Positions 1,514 through 20,357 of a stretch of DNA of 21,750 nucleotides are shown in pieces. The position numbers and the translations under genes are program-made. Under the pieces are notes generated by a model. The model made no database searches. It worked only from the letters and a program-made list of their open reading frames with translations, and was not told where the DNA came from. Origin of the DNA: a virus; the IMG/VR virus record IMGVR_UViG_3300047510_003605, positions 1-21,750 of that record. The stretch is one strand, 5' to 3'. Positions within the stretch are counted from its first letter, which is position 1; each line of letters begins with the position of its first letter.

Positions 1514-2833
1514 ATGAAAGAAATCCTGGATCAGATTCGCCAATATATCGATCAAAAGCACGCTGATAAAACTTGGGTGGCTGGAAAAGATTTCGTGAAT
1601 TATGCCGGACCTCATTTTTCTGCCGATGAATACGTCGCAGCGGCTGAAGCCCTGTTGAGCGGTTGGCTTGTCATGGGAAATAAAAGCCTTCGCTTTGAAC
1701 ACGTGTTTCCTAAACAATTTGGGAAGACGTGCGGCGTATTGACTAATAGCGGATCTTCTGCGAATCTATTAATGATGACCGCGATGAGATCTAAACGTGG
1801 ATACAATTTTCCAGATGGCACAAAGGTATTAATGCCGATTGCAGGATTCCCAACGACCTTGAATCCAACAATCCAAAATAATTTTACTCCAGTTTTTTGT
1901 GATATTGAAATTGATACTCTGAACATTGATCTAGATCATGCAGAACGTTTGCTTGAAGAGCAACCAGATATCAAAATCATAACTTTTGCACACGTGTTAG
2001 GAAATCCTCCTAACATGGATAAAGTAATGGAACTAGTTAATAAGTACAAACTAGTTTTATTAGAAGACTGCTGTGATGGTTTAGGAACGTTATATGATGG
2101 AAAACCATTGGGCTCCTTTGGAGAAATGGCAAGCTGTTCATTTTATCCAGCGCATCACATGACAATGGGTGAAGGCGGCTTCGTTGCTATGAATGATCCA
2201 CAACAAGAAATCATTGTTCGCAGTTTACGTGAATGGGGTCGTGGCTGTTACTGCGTCGGGCCAGAAGCCAATAAATTAAAATGCGGCACCTGCAAAAAAC
2301 GCTTTCAGGCTTGGATTCCAGAAATGCCTGGTGAAATTTTTGATCATAAATACGTGTATGATGAAATTGGTTATAATCTAAAACCAATTGAATTACAGTC
2401 GGCCATGGGTTTAGAGCAGATTAAAAAATTGCCAGAAATTCATCAGCTACGTCAACGCAATTATAATTTGCTATTTTCGATTTATGAAAAGTATGAAGAG
2501 TTTTTCCATTTACCTAGAGCGCGTGATAAAGCAGATGTCAGCTGGTTTGCATTCCCTTTGACCATTCGTGAAGGTGCGCCATTTAAGCGTATGGATATTG
2601 TTGATTATTTAGAAGAAAATCTAATTCAAACACGTCCATACTTTGCTGGAAATATTATGTTGCAACCTGCGTATAGTCATTTAATGAATCCAAAAGATGC
2701 TAGAGATAATTATCCGGTCGCCACATTTACAATGAAAAATACTTTCTTCCATGGCTGTAGTCCTGTTATTACACCGGAACAAATTGCCTACATTGGCGAA
2801 AAAGTTGATGCATTTATGAGCTTATTCAAATGA
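1514..2833 (+). CDS. rfbH: RfbH/DdhC-type PLP sugar 3-dehydrase (E1, DegT family)
   Basis: The 439-aa protein is a full-length DegT/DnrJ/EryC1-family enzyme of the E1 subgroup, CDP-6-deoxy-4-hexulose 3-dehydrase, which removes the C3 hydroxyl of a 4-keto-6-deoxy sugar nucleotide. SFYPAHHMTMGEGG (209-222) has His214 where aminotransferases carry the PLP lysine; this swap marks dehydrases. Cys187, Cys245 and Cys247 give the C-X57-C-X1-C spacing known for the E1 [2Fe-2S] ligands, followed by Cys257 and Cys260. FDHKYVYDEIGYNLKP is also typical of RfbH. E1 needs a flavin/iron-sulfur reductase (E3), and none is in the window, so the host or another phage region must supply it. It starts 1 base after the previous stop, and its TGA overlaps the next ATG (ATGA). 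The subfamily is clear. The nucleotide carrier (CDP or dTDP) is not, since the nearby 4,6-dehydratase looks dTDP-type. Confidence 0.88.
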   Translation: MKEILDQIRQYIDQKHADKTWVAGKDFVNYAGPHFSADEYVAAAEALLSGWLVMGNKSLRFEHVFPKQFGKTCGVLTNSGSSANLLMMTAMRSKRGYNFPDGTKVLMPIAGFPTTLNPTIQNNFTPVFCDIEIDTLNIDLDHAERLLEEQPDIKIITFAHVLGNPPNMDKVMELVNKYKLVLLEDCCDGLGTLYDGKPLGSFGEMASCSFYPAHHMTMGEGGFVAMNDPQQEIIVRSLREWGRGCYCVGPEANKLKCGTCKKRFQAWIPEMPGEIFDHKYVYDEIGYNLKPIELQSAMGLEQIKKLPEIHQLRQRNYNLLFSIYEKYEEFFHLPRARDKADVSWFAFPLTIREGAPFKRMDIVDYLEENLIQTRPYFAGNIMLQPAYSHLMNPKDARDNYPVATFTMKNTFFHGCSPVITPEQIAYIGEKVDAFMSLFK

Positions 2834-3459
2834 TAACAAAACAAGAACTAATTGATTTTGAAACAGACATAGGCGAAACATTCAATCGTGGAGAAATCCG
2901 CGCGCCTATTCACTTGTATGCAGGCAATGAAGAGCAAATTATGCGCGTGTTTAATGAGTGTGGGATTGACACGCAAAATGATTGGATTTGTTGCACGTGG
3001 CGTAATCATTATCAAGCACTGCTAAAAGGAATTCCGCCTGAAGTAGTTAAAGAACAAATCATGGCTGGCAAGAGCATGGTTATGAACTTGCCACAATATA
3101 AATTTATCTGTTCTAGCATTGTTGGCGGTATTCCGAGTATTGCAACTGGCTTGGCGTTGGCGATAAAACTTAAAGGAACTAATGAACGTGTTTGGTGCTG
3201 GACAGGCGACATGAGCGCTGAAACGGGTGCATGGACTGAAGCATACAGATATGCACGAGCACAGAATTTACCAATCACGTTTGTTGTCGAAGATAATGAA
3301 CTTAGCGTTTTAACTCCTACACGCGAAGTATGGGGCGATGAGAAGTGGTACTTGCCTTCACAAAATCGTGTTTGGTATAAGAGCCAACATTTAATCTATT
3401 ACAAATATAAGAACACAAAATATCCGCATGCGGGTGCAGGCATAAGGGTGCAATTCTAA
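2830..3459 (+). CDS. Thiamine-diphosphate enzyme, E1-alpha-like subunit (short)
   Basis: The 209-aa protein resembles the alpha subunit of pyruvate/acetoin dehydrogenase E1 and the N-terminal part of transketolase. TWRNHYQALLKG (56-67) corresponds to the conserved R-x-H region. The ThDP-Mg motif starts at GDM (126-128), runs through ExAYRYARAQNLPITFVVEDN (137-156) and ends at Asn156. PHAGAGIRVQF closes the domain. Normal E1-alpha chains exceed 300 residues, so this is only the diphosphate-binding core. Its ATG overlaps the rfbH stop (ATGA), and its TAA overlaps the ATG of the beta-like gene (TAATG), which implies translational coupling and a heteromeric enzyme. Beside a sugar 3-dehydrase, the likely role is transfer of a two-carbon acyl unit to a keto sugar, as AviB1/B2-type pairs or YerE do. 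That role is inference; the family is well supported. Confidence 0.8.
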   Translation: MITKQELIDFETDIGETFNRGEIRAPIHLYAGNEEQIMRVFNECGIDTQNDWICCTWRNHYQALLKGIPPEVVKEQIMAGKSMVMNLPQYKFICSSIVGGIPSIATGLALAIKLKGTNERVWCWTGDMSAETGAWTEAYRYARAQNLPITFVVEDNELSVLTPTREVWGDEKWYLPSQNRVWYKSQHLIYYKYKNTKYPHAGAGIRVQF

Positions 3460-3998
3460 TGACTACACAACTTTATAACCAGAAACTTAAAGAAGCCATG
3501 AATTGGCTTGCAACTCAACCGAATGTTATGATGTTAGGGCAAGCAGTTTGCTATGCTGGTACAGGCTGCTATGAAAGTTTAACAGAAGTTCCAGCTGATA
3601 AAAAGATGGAATTTCCTGTTGCGGAAAATTTTCAAATTGGCGTTAGTATAGGTATGGCGATCAACGGTCTTGTGCCGGTAAACATTGTTCCTCGTTGGAA
3701 CTTCCTGCTGTGCGCCACAGATCAAATTGTCAATCATTTGGATAAGATGCATTCCCTGAGTCAAGGCCGCTGCCAACCTAAAGTTATTATTCGTGTTGCG
3801 GTTGGTAGTGAAAAACCAGTTGATCCGCAGGACCAACATAAGGGAAACTTTGCGGCTGCTTTCCGTTTAATGTGTAAAACAATTGATATAATTGAGTGTC
3901 CTACTCCAGAGTCTATTCTGCCGGCGTATGAAAAGGCGTATGGCCGCACAGATGGGCGTAGCACTATTGTTGTTGAGTTTCCAGATTACGGCAAATGA
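3459..3998 (+). CDS. Thiamine-diphosphate enzyme, E1-beta-like subunit (pyrimidine domain only)
   Basis: The 179-aa protein matches the pyrimidine-binding domain of E1-beta/transketolase. FPVAENFQIGVSIGMAINGLVPV (52-74) places Glu56 as the probable glutamate that activates the ThDP aminopyrimidine. ATDQIVNHLDKMHSLSQG (86-103) and VIIRVAVGSEKPVDPQDQHKG are the usual dehydrogenase-beta signatures. E1-beta is normally about 325 residues and has a C-terminal transketolase_C domain; here the protein stops cleanly after the pyrimidine domain (VVEFPDYGK). With its alpha partner it would form a minimal catalytic core. No E2 or lipoyl gene is nearby, so a role in an oxidative 2-oxoacid dehydrogenase complex is unlikely. 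Start and stop overlap both neighbours (TAATG upstream, ATGA downstream), which fixes the start. Confidence 0.8.
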   Translation: MTTQLYNQKLKEAMNWLATQPNVMMLGQAVCYAGTGCYESLTEVPADKKMEFPVAENFQIGVSIGMAINGLVPVNIVPRWNFLLCATDQIVNHLDKMHSLSQGRCQPKVIIRVAVGSEKPVDPQDQHKGNFAAAFRLMCKTIDIIECPTPESILPAYEKAYGRTDGRSTIVVEFPDYGK

Positions 3999-4813
3999 GA
4001 ATACTATTAACGGGCGGTTCTGGATTTATTGGCAAGTATTTAAGAAAACATTTAGAACACGAAATACTAGCGCCTTCATCTAGTGAGTTAAATCTCACCA
4101 ATGAAGATCAAGTACGTCTATATTTAGAAAATAATCCTGTTGATGTTGTTATACATTCCGCGGTGTTTGGCAGAGAGCAAGTGTGTTCCACTGATCAGGA
4201 AATTACTAATATTAATCTTCTGATGTTCAAAAACTTATACTCTTGCTTAGACCTATATGACAAATTTATTAATATTGGTTCAGGCGCCGAGTTCGGTTTA
4301 ACTCTTAGCAGTGATAACAGTAAAGAAGAAGATATATTTTTACAATTCCCAACAGAAGCCTATGGGTTAGGTAAAAACATTATTGCTAGAATTATTAGTC
4401 ACACTAACAATTTTTACAACTTAAGATTATTTTCTTGTATAGATCCTAGCGAACCAGATGGTCGCTTACTAAAAAAGTTTTTAAAATCAGTCAGGGAAGG
4501 AATTCCTTTTGTAGTTGATAAAGATAGGTACGTCGATTTTTTTAGTTTACATGATCTTACGGTTGTCATTAATGCGTTACTAGACAACCAGATTACGATC
4601 AAAGATTTAAATCTCGTTTATCAGCATAAGTATCTGGTGTCTTCCATGCTGTATAAATATTGCGAACATCATAATATTGATAAAAGCGCAGTTAATGTTA
4701 CTGGAACATCTAATATCAATTATACCGGAGATGGTTCAAAATTGCTTTCATTAAATCTGCAACTACGTGGGCTTGATGAAGAATTAAAATTATATAAGGT
4801 CTATGATGAATGA
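3995..4813 (+). CDS. NAD(P)-dependent sugar-nucleotide reductase/epimerase (extended SDR)
   Basis: The 272-aa protein starts with the Rossmann motif TGGSGFIG (6-13). It has the SDR catalytic set: Ser96 in NIGSGAEFG, Tyr123 and Lys127 in YGLGK. NPVDVVIHSA follows the NAD-binding half as in RmlD and GDP-fucose synthases. It should reduce or epimerise a 4-keto (or acyl-branched) sugar nucleotide. In the yersiniose A pathway a reductase (YerF) acts after the ThDP-dependent branching enzyme, and this gene's place directly behind the ThDP pair fits that job, but the exact reaction is inference. It is shorter than typical RmlD (about 300 residues). The ATG sits in an ATGA overlap with the previous stop. 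It ends a coupled block (1514-4813); a 69-base gap follows before the next gene. Confidence 0.78.
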   Translation: MRILLTGGSGFIGKYLRKHLEHEILAPSSSELNLTNEDQVRLYLENNPVDVVIHSAVFGREQVCSTDQEITNINLLMFKNLYSCLDLYDKFINIGSGAEFGLTLSSDNSKEEDIFLQFPTEAYGLGKNIIARIISHTNNFYNLRLFSCIDPSEPDGRLLKKFLKSVREGIPFVVDKDRYVDFFSLHDLTVVINALLDNQITIKDLNLVYQHKYLVSSMLYKYCEHHNIDKSAVNVTGTSNINYTGDGSKLLSLNLQLRGLDEELKLYKVYDE

Positions 4814-4882
4814 CAGCTTATTGCTCAGATCATATTTCAAATAACACCACCCATATTCAAAAACAAATTCGCAGAGACTAAT

Positions 4883-5827
4883 ATGAAAAAAATTGTATAC
4901 GTAACAGGATGTTTAGGATTTATAGGAGTTCATGTAACGCGTCAGTGTTTGGACTTAGGTTGGTATGTTATTGGAGTTGATAAATTAACTTATGCTAGTA
5001 ACTTACAGTTCTTGCCAGAATTTGAAGCACGGCCTAATTTTAAGTTTATCAAGTCAGACATAAATGATTTAGAAATGTTGTATGACTGCGATTACTTTAT
5101 TAACATTGCCGCAGAAACACACGTTGATAATAGTATCGAGAGCAGCGATCATTTCGTGCATTCAAACATTAATGGCGTTCATCACATCCTTAAACTAATC
5201 AATCAGAAGCCAAAACATAAAATGCCGGTGCTACTACATTTTAGCACTGATGAAGTGTATGGTGATATCCTTGAAGGTTTCCACACTGAGAAAGATTTAT
5301 TAAAGCCTAGCAACCCATACTCTGCTACTAAAGCGGCTGCCGATATGCTAATTCTAGCATGGGCCCGCACATTCAACTTGCCGTACATTATTGTTCGTCC
5401 AACAAATAACTACGGTATTGGGCAGTATGTAGAAAAATTAATTCCTAAGTCAGTTAAGTATTTGTCAATTGGCAAGAAGATCGACCTGCATAATAATGGG
5501 ACTCCAGTGCGAACTTGGCTACATGCAGATGATACGGCCCGTGCTGTTATCACTATTATTAATTCTGGTGTAACCAATGAAATCTTTAATATTTCTGGGA
5601 ATTATGAAGAAAAGAACATTGTTGTTGTTCGTAAGATTTTAGAACAAATGCTTGGCCCAGGAGCTGATACTGAACAACATCTTGTTCATATGGAACGGCC
5701 TGGTCAAGATTTACGTTATGCTATAGATGATTCTAAACTAAAGGCTCTTGGCTGGACAGCTAAAGCAAAATTTGATGTTGAATTAAAAAAGATTGTAAAA
5801 TATTATAGAAAAAACTTTATATGGTGA
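4883..5827 (+). CDS. rmlB: dTDP-glucose 4,6-dehydratase-like enzyme (RmlB family)
   Basis: The 314-aa extended SDR has the RmlB signatures in order: TGCLGFIG (8-15), GVDKLTYASNL (31-41), NIAAETHVDNSI (74-85), FSTDEVYGD (120-128) with the Thr-Asp-Glu active-site triad 122-124, YSATK (Tyr146, Lys150), and RPTNNYGIGQYVEKLIP (172-188). RmlB converts dTDP-glucose to dTDP-4-keto-6-deoxyglucose using tightly bound NAD. This supplies the substrate type needed by an RfbH 3-dehydrase, so the gene can serve as the first step of the cluster's pathway, although it lies downstream. A nucleotidyltransferase (RmlA/RfbF) is not in the window. It is slightly shorter than typical RmlB (about 355 residues). The SD is weak (AGAG before ATG). 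Use of dTDP rather than CDP is inferred from the YASNL and THVDNSI motifs. Confidence 0.85.
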   Translation: MKKIVYVTGCLGFIGVHVTRQCLDLGWYVIGVDKLTYASNLQFLPEFEARPNFKFIKSDINDLEMLYDCDYFINIAAETHVDNSIESSDHFVHSNINGVHHILKLINQKPKHKMPVLLHFSTDEVYGDILEGFHTEKDLLKPSNPYSATKAAADMLILAWARTFNLPYIIVRPTNNYGIGQYVEKLIPKSVKYLSIGKKIDLHNNGTPVRTWLHADDTARAVITIINSGVTNEIFNISGNYEEKNIVVVRKILEQMLGPGADTEQHLVHMERPGQDLRYAIDDSKLKALGWTAKAKFDVELKKIVKYYRKNFIW

Positions 5828-5838
5828 TGGAGGATTAA

Positions 5839-6702
5839 ATGCGCGTTTTTGATTGTTTTACCTTCTTTAATGAATTCGAAATTTTGGAATTAAGACTTGC
5901 AGAATTATATGATGTTGTAGATTGTTTCGTGATTTGTGAAGCTAACACCACGCACAACAATAATTCAAAGCCATTTTATCTAAAAGAGAATTTTTCAAGA
6001 TTCGAAAAATATGCAGATAAAATTAAACTATTAACAATATCTGATATGCCTAGGGATCATAATACTTGGGTTAATGAAAAATTTCAAAGGCGTGTTCTAG
6101 AACGAGGCTTAAGAGATCTTAGGGCAGATGATTTGGTGATAGTGAGCGACGCTGATGAGATACCGCGCGCCGATGCAATTCAAGCAATAAAAGATGATAC
6201 GAATGATTACGATAGGTATTTGCTTAGCATTCCTTTATTTTATTTTAAATTGAATTTCTATATGCACTCTCCAAATTTTAGACAGCGCAATATAGCTGTT
6301 TCTCGCGGTAGAGTATTTTCAGATCCACAATCTGAACGAGAATTTTATTTTGATAAAGCTGGGCTGCCGTCAAATTTCGCATGTGAAGATTTTTGTATAT
6401 TAGAGCATGCTGGTTGGCATTTTACATATTTTGCGCACGACAATAATCTTGCGGTTAACAAGCTTAAAAACTTCGCTCACGCAAATGATGCAAACACAAA
6501 TGAAATTGTGCAAAATATAAATCTTGACTATATGATCAAAAATAAAGTTGGTTTTTGCGGCTTCAATCATCCAGAAAAATTTGAATATATTACAATAGAT
6601 GATTATTTCCCAAAGACAGTTTTGGAGAATCCAGAAAAATATGATCATTTGATCGTAAAAGGCGACACAAAATCAATTTATGAATTTTACCCGGAGTGCT
6701 GA
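5839..6702 (+). CDS. GT17-family glycosyltransferase
   Basis: The 287-aa protein matches the GT17 family (beta-1,4-mannosyl-glycoprotein N-acetylglucosaminyltransferase type; bacterial and viral members have unknown acceptors). The N-terminus has DCFTFFNEFEILELRLAEL (5-23), then VDCFVICEAN (27-36), FSRFEKYADKIKLL, NEKFQRRVLERGL and the acidic metal site VSDADEIPRADAI (102-114). A later stretch, CEDFCILEHAGWHFTYF, also fits. It would be cytoplasmic and transfer one sugar to a growing glycan. The start has a strong GGAGG SD 6 bases upstream. The gene follows the 4,6-dehydratase after 11 bases, and its end overlaps the SD of the next gene, so all probably share one transcript. The family call is firm; donor and acceptor are unknown. 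Confidence 0.85.
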   Translation: MRVFDCFTFFNEFEILELRLAELYDVVDCFVICEANTTHNNNSKPFYLKENFSRFEKYADKIKLLTISDMPRDHNTWVNEKFQRRVLERGLRDLRADDLVIVSDADEIPRADAIQAIKDDTNDYDRYLLSIPLFYFKLNFYMHSPNFRQRNIAVSRGRVFSDPQSEREFYFDKAGLPSNFACEDFCILEHAGWHFTYFAHDNNLAVNKLKNFAHANDANTNEIVQNINLDYMIKNKVGFCGFNHPEKFEYITIDDYFPKTVLENPEKYDHLIVKGDTKSIYEFYPEC

Positions 6703-6703
6703 A

Positions 6704-7480
6704 ATGTCAAACTTAACTTTTTCCCATTCAGGAACATTTGGTGATATCATCTATGCTCTACCAATTATGAAGCAACTTGGCGGCGGCGATTTGTACTTGC
6801 GATTACACAATATGGACAACATGGCAAAAAAGGTTCTTGGTGTCGCCAACGCTGGCGCACACTCTGGTGAAATGACTAAAGAACAGTTTGACAGTTTAAC
6901 TTCATTAATGCAACAGCAATCATACGTGAAAAGTTGGAATGTCTGGAACGGTGAACACGTTGATGTCGCATTCGAAGAATACTGTTTACAAATTCCTAGA
7001 GATCAGCCGGGCAATTATGCTTTCAAATATGCCATGGCAGCTGGAGTAAATTTTTATGAAAACTATGAGGAATTAATGATTAGGCCATGGCTTGAAGTTA
7101 AAGATCCAATTAAAATTCCAAATAGACCAATCGTAGTTAATAGAATAAGTCGTCACCTTTATGGTTGTGATCCAGAGTTAACTGCTTGGAAAAAATTTAT
7201 TAGAATGGGATTACTTTCAACTGCAGTTTATGTCGGATTGCCAGACGAACATCTTTGGTTTCAAGACACGCTCGGCGTAAAAATTGATTATTATCCAACA
7301 TCAAATATTTTAGACTTGGCTCGCGTAATTGCCGGAGCTGAAATGTTTATTGGCAGTCAGAGCTTGTGTTTAAGTCTAGCGCTCGGTCTCGGTAAAACAA
7401 CATATTGCGAAGGCAGAAAAGATATTAGACCAGGTCGCAACGAATGTTTTTACATACGGCCAAATGTATTTTATTTCTAA
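6704..7480 (+). CDS. GT9-like (heptosyltransferase-type) GT-B glycosyltransferase
   Basis: I take ATG 6704 as the start, with CGGAG 8-12 bases upstream; the earlier ATG 6680 lies inside the preceding gene and lacks an SD. The 258-aa product begins TFSHSGTFGDIIYALPIMKQLGGGD, the N-terminal acceptor-side motif of GT9-like enzymes, and has ARVIAGAEMFIGSQSLCLSLALGLG near the C-terminus, the matching donor-side Rossmann motif. It is a clear paralogue of the first half of the 52-1512 gene, so this phage carries the domain once alone and once fused to a GT34-like domain. At 258 residues it is shorter than true heptosyltransferases (about 320-350). A cytoplasmic role in building the same glycan is likely. 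The sugar is not predictable. Confidence 0.7.
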   Translation: MSNLTFSHSGTFGDIIYALPIMKQLGGGDLYLRLHNMDNMAKKVLGVANAGAHSGEMTKEQFDSLTSLMQQQSYVKSWNVWNGEHVDVAFEEYCLQIPRDQPGNYAFKYAMAAGVNFYENYEELMIRPWLEVKDPIKIPNRPIVVNRISRHLYGCDPELTAWKKFIRMGLLSTAVYVGLPDEHLWFQDTLGVKIDYYPTSNILDLARVIAGAEMFIGSQSLCLSLALGLGKTTYCEGRKDIRPGRNECFYIRPNVFYF

Positions 7481-7492
7481 GGATGGTTCATA

Positions 7493-8260
7493 ATGTCTAC
7501 AAACGTTGTCAAATTTTATTCGCATGAACAGCAAGATGAATTTATTTTCAATCTATTTGGGGCAAAGCGTGGTGGTTCCTTTTTAGATATTTCATGTAGC
7601 CACCCGATCGTTGGCAGCAATACATATACATTAGAGGAATCCTTGGGTTGGGATGGAATAGGATTTGATATTGTTGATGTTGTTGAAAAATTAAATTGGG
7701 ACAAATATCGAAAAACTAAGTTTGTTCAGATGGATGCAACTTCACCAGAATTAACAGATTATCTTAAAAATAATGTTTCTGATGTGATAGATTATATTTC
7801 AATAGATGTTGACGCGTATCCTCATAATTATAGCGGACAAACTTTACAGCGCGTAATTGATTCTGGAATAAGATTTAAGGCTATGACATTTGAACATGAA
7901 TTTTATAAATTTGGTCATTTTGTTAGAGATCCTGCTAGAGATATTCTAGAAAGTCAAGGCTATGTGATGCTTTTTGAAAATGTTAAGCTGTGGCAACCTG
8001 GCGCAATTGCAGATCCGTGGGAAGATTGGTGGATTGATCCAAAATATTTTGATGAAAAAATTTTACAGTGTTATAAAAAGAATCTTTTTTATTTTGAATG
8101 TATTGACATTCTTCAAGACGTTCAAAAAATTGATTATACTGCGCAACATGAATTTTGCGCGGCGTATGCCGAAGAATATAACATTGAAGGACATAATGAT
8201 CTTTGGGGTCATTATCCACAGGTTAGACGAGAATGGCGTCGCCCACCAAAAGCAAATTAA
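7493..8260 (+). CDS. FkbM-like SAM-dependent methyltransferase
   Basis: The 255-aa protein resembles FkbM/Methyltransf_21 enzymes. QDEFIFNLFGAKRGGSFLDISC (14-35) is the typical start of the SAM-binding Rossmann domain, SNTYTLEESLGWDGIGFDI (42-60) the next strand, and DVIDYISIDVDAYPHNYS (98-115) the acidic motif. FkbM-type enzymes usually O-methylate sugars or polyketides, so it probably caps or decorates the sugar made or transferred by the upstream genes. The start has GGATGG upstream and lies 12 bases after the previous stop. It is the last gene of the glycan operon. An unusual Arg/Pro-rich tail (RREWRRPPKAN) ends the protein. Confidence 0.75.
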   Translation: MSTNVVKFYSHEQQDEFIFNLFGAKRGGSFLDISCSHPIVGSNTYTLEESLGWDGIGFDIVDVVEKLNWDKYRKTKFVQMDATSPELTDYLKNNVSDVIDYISIDVDAYPHNYSGQTLQRVIDSGIRFKAMTFEHEFYKFGHFVRDPARDILESQGYVMLFENVKLWQPGAIADPWEDWWIDPKYFDEKILQCYKKNLFYFECIDILQDVQKIDYTAQHEFCAAYAEEYNIEGHNDLWGHYPQVRREWRRPPKAN

Positions 8261-8387: not shown

Positions 8388-8687
8388 ATGACCAGCGTTG
8401 AAAAGATTGACAACTATCCTTCCCGTTACTATGAAGTTATGGAATATATTCTTGGCGGTAAAGATGTTACGCCAGATTTATTGGGATTTTCACCAGAAGA
8501 AGTTGTCTGGTCTCAAGAACAATGGAGTTCAACCACACAAGAGGCATTTCGTCTTTATCTGAATGGTCTTCGCGTCAAATATGGTTTCTCACAAGGTGAA
8601 GGCCGCATTGCTCTAGTTGATAATGGAGCAGAAACTTATGCTCTGCCGCGTGAGTTTGCTCAGCGGTATCTCAGCGCCAAAGCATAA
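8388..8687 (+). CDS. Small hypothetical protein
   Basis: The 99-aa soluble, acidic product (start TSVEKIDNYPSRYYEVMEYIL) has no signal peptide or membrane segment. It looks mostly helical in the first two-thirds and ends with LVDNGAETYALPREFAQRYLSAKA. I recognise no family. The start is secure: TAAGGAG ends 6 bases before the ATG. It stands alone between a leader hairpin and a strong terminator, so it is probably a monocistronic gene with its own expression timing, separate from the glycan operon upstream. Confidence 0.75.
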   Translation: MTSVEKIDNYPSRYYEVMEYILGGKDVTPDLLGFSPEEVVWSQEQWSSTTQEAFRLYLNGLRVKYGFSQGEGRIALVDNGAETYALPREFAQRYLSAKA

Positions 8688-8702
8688 GAGTAAAGTGCAA
8701 TA

Positions 8703-8743
8703 AAACAGAAAGGCCCGATTTTAATTGGGTCTTTCTGTTTAAT
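8703..8743 (+). terminator. Rho-independent terminator
   Basis: AAACAGAAAGGCCC (8703-8716) pairs with GGGTCTTTCTGTTT (8727-8740) over 14 bp with a single G-U wobble and a 10-nt loop. The 3' arm ends in TTT followed by AATATT, and the 5' arm is A-rich, so the stem could work in both directions. It sits 16 bases after the stop of the 8388 gene. Confidence 0.85.
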
Positions 8744-8936
8744 ATTATCAAATATGTGATTGACCGTACTACGTGTTGTCATACCTATTAAATTTTTATG
8801 CGCAATTCTTAAAATTTATAAGAATTGCCACGGTTAATAAAAGCGCGATATAGTAATATCTAAAATATAGATTTTTCATTTGAATAAATAAAAACGCATA
8901 GCATTTGTAGATCTCATATTCATAAGGAATACGTAA
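8744..8936 (+). promoter_or_regulatory. AT-rich leader with hairpin before the GT-A gene
   Basis: This noncoding stretch holds a perfect 10-bp hairpin, GCAATTCTTA (8802-8811) / TAAGAATTGC (8819-8828), with a 7-nt loop and no U-tract, so it is not a normal terminator. A smaller ATCTA/TAGAT repeat followed by TTTTT comes after it. AATAAATA at about 8883 is only loosely like a T4 late promoter. No promoter can be called with confidence. The SD is AAGGAA before ATG 8937. Confidence 0.45.
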
Positions 8937-9698
8937 ATGAAAAAGGTAAAAGGCAAGTTGAACATTCCAACTCGTGGTCCCCAGGGTATGCAAACTGGAG
9001 TTCCATATTCACCGCAGAGTGCACCAGCCGCGGCACCAGCAGGGCAAGGCCAACAGCAAGCTGGACAACGTCCTCCAGTAATCATGATTGCGGTGCCGGC
9101 TATGGAAACAGTTCACACTGAATTTGCGCAGCACTTGGCGATGGCAACTGCTCACCTAACTCGTGCCGGAGCTCTAGTAACGTGTGCGTTCAATATCGGT
9201 TCTGTCATCACTTTAGCACGCCGCAATCTAGTAAATCATTTCCTTCAGTCTGGCGCTGATTATATTTGGTGGCTTGACAGCGATATGAAATTCCCAATTG
9301 ACGCAGGCGTGAGACTATTAAATCGTAATAAGGATATCGTTGGCGTTAATTATCGTCGCCGTCGTTTTCCAAATCCAACATTTACTGCGATGGTTGGCAA
9401 GCCAGGCACTTACACTGAGCTTCAAACTACTCCAAACTCTCCTCCAATGGAAGCAATTGATGTTCTGCCACACGGCTGTGTAATGGTTAAGCGTGAAGTT
9501 TATCTGAAAGTACCACAACCTCATTATCTACAAGAATATATCCCAGAACTCAATATTGAACTTGGTGAAGATCTATATTTCTGTCGTGAAGCACAAAAAG
9601 TGGGTTATACCGTTTGGTGCGATCATGAATTAAGCCGCGAATGTGCCCACATCGGTGTGTTCCACTTTAACTGGGATCTTAGCGTGCCTAATGAATAG
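8937..9698 (+). CDS. GT-A-fold glycosyltransferase with low-complexity N-terminus
   Basis: The 253-aa protein has a Pro/Ala/Gln-rich, probably disordered N-terminus (about 10-46) and then a GT-A-type domain. VIMIAVPAMETVHTEF opens the domain, ADYIWWLDSDMKFP (107-120) carries the DxD metal site (D114, D116), and ELGEDLYFCREAQKVGYTVWCD (208-229) is the usual ED motif with a late His238 in CAHIG. Similar stand-alone enzymes occur in phages and may glycosylate virion proteins or surface glycans. The disordered tail is unusual for such a short enzyme and could tether it to a partner or particle. It has its own leader and is followed by the 9708-9772 structure, so it is separate from the glycan operon. 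The fold is well supported; donor and acceptor are unknown. Confidence 0.75.
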   Translation: MKKVKGKLNIPTRGPQGMQTGVPYSPQSAPAAAPAGQGQQQAGQRPPVIMIAVPAMETVHTEFAQHLAMATAHLTRAGALVTCAFNIGSVITLARRNLVNHFLQSGADYIWWLDSDMKFPIDAGVRLLNRNKDIVGVNYRRRRFPNPTFTAMVGKPGTYTELQTTPNSPPMEAIDVLPHGCVMVKREVYLKVPQPHYLQEYIPELNIELGEDLYFCREAQKVGYTVWCDHELSRECAHIGVFHFNWDLSVPNE

Positions 9699-9707
9699 AA
9701 TAGTGAT

Positions 9708-9772
9708 TCCCAAATAAATAGATAGTTAATTATCTGCCAAAGGCGTCAAACGCCTTTGGCGTTTATTTGGGA
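9708..9772 (+). promoter_or_regulatory. Perfect three-way-junction RNA element burying the SD of the next gene
   Basis: Three helices nest exactly. P1 is TCCCAAATAAA (9708-9718) with TTTATTTGGGA (9762-9772), 11 bp. P2 is AGATA (9720-9724) with TATCT (9731-9735), loop GTTAAT. P3 is GCCAAAGGCGT (9736-9746) with ACGCCTTTGGC (9750-9760), 11 bp, loop CAA. Only bases 9719 and 9761 are unpaired at the junction. The SD GGGAG (9769-9773) of the gene starting at 9780 lies mostly in the 3' arm of P1. P3 followed by GTTTATTT could also act as a terminator for the upstream gene. Whether P1 or the ribosome wins would set translation of the downstream gene. Confidence 0.75.
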
Positions 9773-9779
9773 GAATACT

Positions 9780-10604
9780 ATGGGCATCACAGTCAGCACG
9801 CTGTACAATACTCAGCCTGAGACAAAGATAGACTGGAAGCAGGATTGGAAAGAAGATACTAAAATGGATTTTCTTCTTGATGATCCACTACCAGTTGGCA
9901 CACTAACACAAACACTTTGTGGCACTTTAGATCCTATTGGTCAAGGCACTGCAAACTGCATGTGGATTGGTAACTTAGGCCAAGTCAACGGCTTGCCAGC
10001 TACTGAATTCATCAAAGTCAGAAATGAAACGTACGGTATTGAACTTGGATTAAAAGTTCGCGCGCGAACAAGTTCTGCCAACACTGCAACAATGTTAACA
10101 AGTGGAGCTCCTGGAGAGTTAATTACTTGTCGCGTGCCAGCACTTCCTATGCCGTTAGCGTATAGGCTCGCCTGGCAAATTGATTATTCTGTTGTGACTG
10201 GAATTGCAGGCACTCAGAGTCGTTTATCAGATTTTGAAATCAAAATGCTTTGGGATATGGACCCAGCTGCAGATTCGTTTAATCCGACCGCCTCAACTAC
10301 ATTAGTCCTAAATTATGCCGGTAACGGAAATTGGACAACGACAGACCTGCGCGCATTAAATCCTATCGTGATTACCCCTGATGCTGGCATGACTTCACGA
10401 AATGCAGATAGAACTCGTGTTGAACAAGACAGTTCAAATCTTGGATTTGACATTCTGTTACCGTTTCTGCAAACAGGGCTGCCTGCAAATTGGCCATCCT
10501 CAACTGGCACTCATCACGTTTACATGATTGCAAGTATTGGTGGCCAAGAAGTTGCTGCAATTAGAACAAAGATCAATGTAATCCCAGGAGCAGCCTGGAT
10601 TTAA
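9780..10604 (+). CDS. Hypothetical beta-rich protein, possibly structural
   Basis: I chose ATG 9780 with the SD GGGAGA 6 bases upstream; a TTG at 9756 would lie inside the P3 hairpin. The 274-aa product has no signal peptide or membrane segment. It is rich in Thr, Ala, Gly and Pro, with many short predicted strands (for example PGELITCRVPALPMPLAYRLAWQIDYSV and TSTTLVLNYAGNG-like stretches), which suggests a beta-sandwich protein such as a virion decoration, tail or lectin-like component. I recognise no family. It is followed after 2 bases by the 10607 gene, so the two are co-translated and may both belong to the virion. Its SD is occluded by the three-way junction, pointing to tight translational control. 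Confidence 0.7.
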   Translation: MGITVSTLYNTQPETKIDWKQDWKEDTKMDFLLDDPLPVGTLTQTLCGTLDPIGQGTANCMWIGNLGQVNGLPATEFIKVRNETYGIELGLKVRARTSSANTATMLTSGAPGELITCRVPALPMPLAYRLAWQIDYSVVTGIAGTQSRLSDFEIKMLWDMDPAADSFNPTASTTLVLNYAGNGNWTTTDLRALNPIVITPDAGMTSRNADRTRVEQDSSNLGFDILLPFLQTGLPANWPSSTGTHHVYMIASIGGQEVAAIRTKINVIPGAAWI

Positions 10605-19137: not shown

Positions 19138-19170
19138 CAATCTATTGACAAATTAATTTTGAGACCAAAC

Positions 19171-19647
19171 ATGAAACGTGCTCTGAATAAAACTTCTTAC
19201 CCAAACAAAATTGTTGGTCTGCACGAAAAAATTACTGGCGTGCATTCATTAGTTTATGGCAATGTATCTCATGTTTCCGGCCACGTATCTAACATCTCTG
19301 GTTTTCTGACCGGCCTAAGTGGCAATATAAATCAAATCTATGGTCACGTGTCTAACATATCTGGTGATGTAACTCATATCCAAGGGCATGTAACTAACAT
19401 TCGAGGCTTTACATCTAATATCTCTGGTAATGTTTCTAGTCTATGCGGTGATGTAACTCGGATCTCTGGCAATGTCTCCAATTTGCGAGGTGATGTGTCC
19501 GGCATCCACGGTAATGTATCTGATATTTGTGGTGATATGACCGGGATCAAGGGAAATGTAAATGGTATCAGTGGTAATTTGGATGATTGCGAATTGACAA
19601 AAGAGCAGCGCAAAGCCGGTATTGATATTAGTGATTTAATTGCATAA
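19171..19647 (+). CDS. GxVSxIx heptad-repeat protein (copy 1)
   Basis: I chose ATG 19171 because the paralogue at 19716 starts at the same place; the leading TTG at 19159 is rejected. The 158-aa protein has an N-terminal MKRALNKTS, then about 17 heptad units of the pattern G-[ND]-V-[ST]-x-[IL]-x (for example GNVSHVS, GDVTHIQ, GDVTRIS), and a C-terminal cap GNLDDCELTKEQRKAGIDISDLIA. A 7-residue period with a small Gly and alternating hydrophobics suggests a beta-solenoid. Small proteins of this type are common in phages and, as far as I know, have no assigned function. The repeat is 21 bp at DNA level. It has its own promoter and lies head-to-tail with a longer copy, a clear tandem duplication. 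Confidence 0.8.
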   Translation: MKRALNKTSYPNKIVGLHEKITGVHSLVYGNVSHVSGHVSNISGFLTGLSGNINQIYGHVSNISGDVTHIQGHVTNIRGFTSNISGNVSSLCGDVTRISGNVSNLRGDVSGIHGNVSDICGDMTGIKGNVNGISGNLDDCELTKEQRKAGIDISDLIA

Positions 19648-19652
19648 ATTGG

Positions 19653-19681
19653 TTTACAACTGTTAAATGTGTTGATACAAT
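19653..19681 (+). promoter_or_regulatory. Sigma70-like promoter
   Basis: TTTACA (19653-19658), 17-bp spacer, TACAAT (19676-19681). It lies 35 bases before ATG 19716 and has the same layout as the promoter of copy 1. Confidence 0.72.
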
Positions 19682-19715
19682 AATCCCACTTTCAAATTGT
19701 TCAGGAGAACCAGAC

Positions 19716-20357
19716 ATGAAACGCGCCTTGAATAAAACTTCACCCGAATATATTGCTATTGAAGGTTTGCATGATGGCATTACTGGTGATGTTTCTAATA
19801 TTCGTGGCCTTGTGAGTCACATTCGCGGTAATGTTACATATCTCTCCGGGGACCTTACTAATGTATGGGGAGTTGTTCCAAACAATCTGGCCGGAAATTT
19901 GACTTATCTTAACGGCGATATCTCTAATATTCGTGGTAAGTGTGTTAATATTGTTGGAGATGTCAGCCGTATCTCTGGCGATATCAGTAATATCACTGGT
20001 AATGTTTCTGATATTGCAGGTGATGTGTCTAACATTCGTGGTAGAGTGTCTGTCCTTGCCGGTTGCGTATCTAAGATCAGCGGAGATGTATCAAGCATTT
20101 CTGGTGATGTTACAGACTTGTCTGGAGATGTATCAAACATTTCCGGCGATGTTTTTAATTTGCGAGGTGATGTGTCTAACATCGTGGGTAATGTGTCTAG
20201 GGTTTCTGGAGATGTAACTGGGGTTTATGGTAATTTGACTGATGTTGTTGGGAATCTAGATGATTGTGGGCTAACAGAAGAGCAACGTAAAGCTGGTGTA
20301 AAAATTAGTGATTTAATTGCATCTAATAATTGTAAACTATTAGATGAGTTGTTATAA
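19716..20357 (+). CDS. GxVSxIx heptad-repeat protein (copy 2)
   Basis: The 213-aa paralogue of the 19171 gene has the same start (MKRALNKTS), the same C-terminal cap (GNLDDCGLTEEQRKAGVKISDLIA) and about 23 heptads. One unit is irregular with 8 residues (VVPNNLAG), and several lack the first Asp/Asn (LVSHIRG, KCVNIVG). Copy 2 has a 12-residue extension (SNNCKLLDELL region) absent from copy 1. The different repeat numbers of the two copies suggest unit gain and loss after the duplication. AGGAG gives a good SD. The promoter of the next gene overlaps its 3' end. Function unknown; a beta-solenoid fold is inferred. Confidence 0.8.
   Translation: MKRALNKTSPEYIAIEGLHDGITGDVSNIRGLVSHIRGNVTYLSGDLTNVWGVVPNNLAGNLTYLNGDISNIRGKCVNIVGDVSRISGDISNITGNVSDIAGDVSNIRGRVSVLAGCVSKISGDVSSISGDVTDLSGDVSNISGDVFNLRGDVSNIVGNVSRVSGDVTGVYGNLTDVVGNLDDCGLTEEQRKAGVKISDLIASNNCKLLDELL

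Follow-up and report, generated by a model that had tools for sequence, protein, structure and literature searches.

The window, by which we mean the whole 21,750-base stretch of virus record IMGVR_UViG_3300047510_003605 analysed here (+ strand), contains a glycosyltransferase-like (GT) gene followed by a gene for a 274-amino acid protein, referred to below as the 9780 gene after its first base. The segment 9700–9781 that lies between them is the leader described in this paper, and its features are collected in Table 1.

Table 1. Genes, putative promoters and predicted RNA helices at the 9780 locus
Feature	Position	Strand	Details
AATAAATA, probable late promoter of the GT gene	8883..8890	+	54 nt before the GT start; 95% conserved with G001
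Upstream glycosyltransferase-like gene	8937..9698	+	phrog_1574, phrog_12406; stop ends 9 nt before P1
Outer helix, 5' arm	9700..9705	+	pairs with 9776–9781 (6 bp), including the A and U of the start codon; RNAfold
P1, 5' arm (anti-SD arm)	9707..9719	+	pairs with 9761–9773; 13 bp, two of them G-U
AATAAATA, putative T4-type late promoter octamer	9713..9720	+	first seven bases in the P1 5' arm; motif as in PMC2984593
P2 hairpin	9720..9735	+	9720–9724/9731–9735, 5 bp; possible extra G-U pair 9725/9730
Inferred late transcript start	9725..9728	+	5–8 nt past the octamer, by analogy with T4
P3 hairpin	9736..9760	+	9736–9746/9750–9760, 11 bp, 3-nt loop (minimum-energy fold)
P1, 3' arm	9761..9773	+	Shine-Dalgarno (SD) GGGAG, 9769–9773, wholly inside
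Putatively gated gene, 274 aa	9780..10604	+	no known family (no Pfam, no PHROG)

Homologues of the 9780 product were found neither in phages nor in genome contigs. Among viral contigs the searches returned only IMGVR_UViG_3300014834_000367 (97.8 kb, incomplete; hereafter G001), which is the sole close relative found there, with 87% protein identity, and an N-terminal match in a further contig, G002. The N-terminal DWKQDWKE of the product recurs in a small protein beside a tail-tube-like gene (L004/G002); in L004 this protein (2343–2747) has an Ig-like-looking C-terminal part and adjoins a gp19-like gene. DWKQDWKE may be a shared virion-attachment segment, and its neighbourhood fits, but does not show, a role of the 9780 product as a virion protein. 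Structure prediction gave an all-beta protein at pLDDT 44, and was set aside as yielding no confident model. The other GT relatives examined lack both the 9780 gene and its leader, and the majority have their GT gene directly followed by a small gene; gene and leader therefore seem to have arrived together.

Elsewhere in the window, a cluster of sugar genes (1514–8260) specifies aminotransferase-like, two-part transketolase-like, epimerase-like and glycosyltransferase-like proteins, perhaps for the sugar modification of DNA or surface. A hairpin of the more usual terminator-like form (AGAAAGGCCC...GGGTCTTTCT, 8700–8745) lies past the gene ending at 8687 and is present, with changes, in G001. 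Two paralogous proteins with short GNVSNISGDVT-type repeats (19159–20357) are probably fibre-like or beta-solenoid.

RNA fold of the 9780 leader

The region 9690–9800 folds with a free energy of –40.8 kcal/mol (RNAfold) compared with –19.6 ± 3.4 for shuffled sequences (z –6.3), and none of 200 shuffles was as good. When 1340 gene leaders of the window, T4 and four T4-like contigs are ranked by stability of fold, it comes second and its G001 homologue eleventh. In the minimum-energy fold the + strand RNA from 9707 to 9773 forms a perfect three-way junction spanning 67 nt. A sequence-only reading of this DNA had proposed such a junction, and on the strength of its stability and of the compensatory changes described below we regard it as confirmed. 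That reading gave the sizes of P2 and P3 correctly; its 11-bp P1 is extended here to 13 bp, with two G-U pairs, its two unpaired linker bases disappear, and the SD which it placed for the most part in the P1 3' arm is contained there completely. Sequestration, its central proposal, is supported by a computed probability of only 0.07 that the SD is unpaired in the long RNA; the corresponding value in G001 is 0.01.

The G001 leader shares this plan, including the pairing of P1 to the SD, the loss of which in homologous leaders the sequence-only reading had named as evidence against itself. When the 30 pairs are compared between the two phages 16 are the same, five have changed on one side and eight on both sides with pairing retained, and one, in P2, is broken. 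Within P1 one double and four single changes have occurred, all of them still pairing. P3 has changed on both sides in six of its 11 pairs, which indicates that its shape is conserved and its sequence is not; P3 and its loop are almost wholly different in sequence between window and G001. The outer helix is not clearly conserved in G001. Since the element is seen in these two sequences only, the covariation amounts to good, not overwhelming, support.

A scan of viral contigs with a DNA pattern for the P2 region gave a match in G001 only. A pattern resembling P1 gave at least 123 matches in viral contigs; 11 of the matches listed lie beside a plausible start, and among those listed there was no three-way junction with the octamer in its arm. 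A hairpin of similar design occurs in another viral contig (L155, 8007–8105), where CTCCTCATAAATAATAAATG pairs with CATTTATTTGGAG before an ATG and a late-promoter-like octamer lies in the arm.

A putative late promoter in the P1 arm

The 5' arm of P1 contains the octamer AATAAATA, and the equivalent site in G001 lies at 83644–83651. The late promoter reads NATAAATA in T4-like cyanophages and TATAAATA in T4 (PMC2984593). In G001, 14 of the 23 + strand NATAAATA sites are intergenic, in a contig of which intergenic DNA makes up 7.6%. Upstream of gene starts the motif is found more often on the coding than on the opposite strand (19 vs 3 in G001, 33 vs 10 in T4 and 45 vs 17 in G003). Sigma-70-like promoters around the locus are at chance level. 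The octamer AATAAATA is very probably a late promoter.

G001 is T4-like, since it encodes relatives of the T4 terminase (terL), tail sheath, gp15, clamp loader (gp44), UvsX, UvsW, gp4 and ligase. No late sigma factor gp55 turned up in its incomplete 97.8 kb fragment, nor did tblastn with gp55 proteins from relatives hit either G001 or the window. Five of the six larger relatives searched (G003, G004, G005, G007 and G008), all sharing the GT gene, do possess gp55.

A proposed stage-specific translation gate

Based upon these features we think it likely that the element is a translation gate specific to stage, or to the gene's own promoter, like those known from T4 genes e, soc and 49 and from I-TevI. 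RNA initiated upstream would carry both arms of P1 and fold into the three-way junction, which would conceal the SD together with part of the start region and keep the 9780 gene from being translated from this long RNA. With the late promoter AATAAATA written in the 5' arm, RNA starting there would begin past the arm and retain only P3 as a 5' hairpin, leaving the SD free. The roles of P2 and P3 would be to bring the arms of P1 together in the long RNA, and P3 may also shield the late mRNA at its 5' end.

In late RNA starting 3 to 9 nt past the octamer the computed probability that the SD is unpaired rises to 0.81–0.83 in the window and 0.90–0.92 in G001, and the choice of start within this range does not affect the outcome. 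When the 5' arm alone (the part upstream of the start) was shuffled, the SD was equally hidden in 8 of 300 cases for the window and in none of 300 for G001. The same procedure retrieves the experimentally known gate of T4 gene e. The analysis shows the fold and its retention in one relative, where the motif lies, how it is enriched as a promoter and, by computation, the release of the SD. From these we infer that the motif is active as a late promoter, where its transcripts start, that readthrough RNA reaches the leader and that translation is affected.

RNA from the GT-gene promoter is a possible source of such readthrough. Since the GT gene has its own AATAAATA, long RNA could be made late in addition to early, and the gate may perhaps serve to insulate the 9780 gene from the GT gene no less than to time its expression. 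The sequence-only reading, which is supported in part, had envisaged a terminator combined with a temperature-, protein- or ligand-sensitive gate and missed the promoter in the P1 arm. This promoter offers a simpler mechanism with a known precedent.

The numbers call for some restraint. Switch-like leaders account for 5 of 71 late-promoter leaders drawn from T4 and its relatives and for 37 of 1496 controls (p 0.04), a count that includes both of the cases under study. Such gates are, as in T4, a sporadic device only slightly commoner at late promoters. Selection for the overlap of promoter and arm is not proven by numbers alone, and the overlap might have arisen by chance; it also counts against a gate that an AT-rich complement of the promoter arises easily.

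Two other late-promoter leaders of G001 are possible further gates, since in each an arm at or just past the octamer is predicted to pair with the SD region: 89–130 (L088; CATAAATAGTCTC...GAGACTATT) and 62366–62412 (AATAATCTTTAT...ATAAAGATTAT). In T4, genes 4 and 53 have divergent late promoters (77337–77385; L096), each situated in an arm for which pairing with the SD is predicted (P 0.99 and 0.95).

Alternative explanations

Translational coupling would also open the leader: ribosomes that terminate at the GT stop (9698) would overlap the beginning of P1 and expose the SD, making translation of the 9780 gene dependent on that of the GT gene. P1 begins 9 nt past the GT stop in both phages, and if 12–15 nt past the stop are covered, opening the SD is computed to cost 0.1–0.6 instead of 9.6 kcal/mol in the window and 2.4–0.1 instead of 7.7 kcal/mol in G001. 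With 9 nt covered, however, the cost remains at 8.1 and 5.8 kcal/mol, respectively. Coupling leaves the promoter motif in the arm unexplained, and nearly all relatives lack the 9780 gene after their GT gene, so that the pair is not an old unit. As the whole explanation we consider it rather improbable, but the promoter gate could operate alongside it. To a combined reading, in which one junction serves three controls (the late-promoter SD gate, release by ribosomes finishing the GT gene, and P3, conserved in shape only, as a protective 5' hairpin), we would give about the same low credence as to coupling by itself.

That the element should instead be the intrinsic terminator of the GT unit, with P3 and its T-rich tract as the working parts and the pairing to the SD a side effect, is less probable still. 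A terminator scan does list P3 with the tail TTTATTTGGG, and the G+C-rich hairpin of such terminators is present, but the uninterrupted U tract that should follow is broken (TTTATTT) and the G001 tail, ATTTATTT, is poorer. The T-rich tail is dictated by its pairing to the promoter-bearing arm, of which it is the complement. Since the predicted late start precedes P3, this hairpin belongs to the late leader of the 9780 gene itself and would there stop that gene's own late message; this position and the interrupted tract together make termination unlikely. Nor does a terminator need P1, yet P1 is conserved with a compensatory change. The terminator function attributed to the element by the sequence-only reading is accordingly weak.

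The sensing roles that had been suggested find even less favour. A structured leader that hides an SD is what an RNA thermometer, a riboswitch or a protein-bound operator would have, and a ligand might find a binding site in a three-way junction. Opening the SD, however, is computed to cost 11.1, 9.6 and 9.1 kcal/mol at 20, 37 and 42 °C; as this cost barely depends upon temperature, a thermometer is unlikely. No Rfam covariance model matched the element up to an E value of 1, so that it belongs to no known riboswitch class, and P3 with its loop differs between the phages, with no conserved pocket visible there for a ligand or protein. We attach very little weight to any of these three roles. 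The same low probability is assigned to a DNA-level element, such as a cruciform or an inverted-repeat insertion, without a role in RNA: the inverted repeat is long and perfect and its position lineage-specific, but the G-U pairs kept in P1 point to RNA, as does the way in which the 3' arm exactly overlaps the SD and the 5' arm a promoter.

Comparison with known late gates

The proposed late-promoter gate has close counterparts. In T4 genes e, soc and 49 the SD is hidden in RNA made from upstream, and in gene e the late promoter lies in the DNA of the 5' arm and repression is approximately 100-fold (PMC3014915). The 9780 leader would resemble gene e, and also soc and 49, in that the SD and start are hidden in early or long transcripts, the promoter is in the 5' arm and the late transcripts lack this arm. 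The arm promoter of e is TATAAATA while that of the 9780 leader is AATAAATA; the e structure is a simple hairpin close to the promoter whereas ours is a three-way junction of 67-nt span; and, unlike e, the 9780 leader has a separate long hairpin, P3, which would stay in the late mRNA. Lastly, gene e encodes lysozyme, while the protein gated here would be one without a known family.

I-TevI likewise has its SD hidden in RNA made from upstream, and the location of its late promoter prevents late RNA from adopting the inhibitory fold (PMC2988022). The 9780 leader is like those of I-TevI, I-TevII, I-TevIII, segB and Aeh1 mobE (PMC2988022) in having its late promoter so situated that late RNA would escape; those are homing endonuclease genes, and the structures described for them are hairpins (PMC2988022). 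The cyanomyovirus late promoter NATAAATA (PMC2984593) is the same octamer upstream of genes, but it was described there as a promoter only, without a link to an RNA gate. A simple stem-loop is usual in the described gates, though not essential to the mechanism, and in both of our phages its place is taken by a three-way junction. The substitution of a three-way junction for a hairpin is probably a new form of the T4 e-type late translation gate.

With this gate, a timing device long familiar from T4 would also serve an uncultivated T4-like phage and a gene newly acquired by it, with an RNA structure more elaborate than the simple hairpins described. It suggests that gates with a late promoter in the arm can be proposed from sequence alone, by asking whether a NATAAATA octamer falls in an arm that pairs with the SD, and that the genes behind such gates may be ones which the phage cannot afford early. 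If the reading with three controls were true, a lineage-specific gene would bring with it its own complete timing module.
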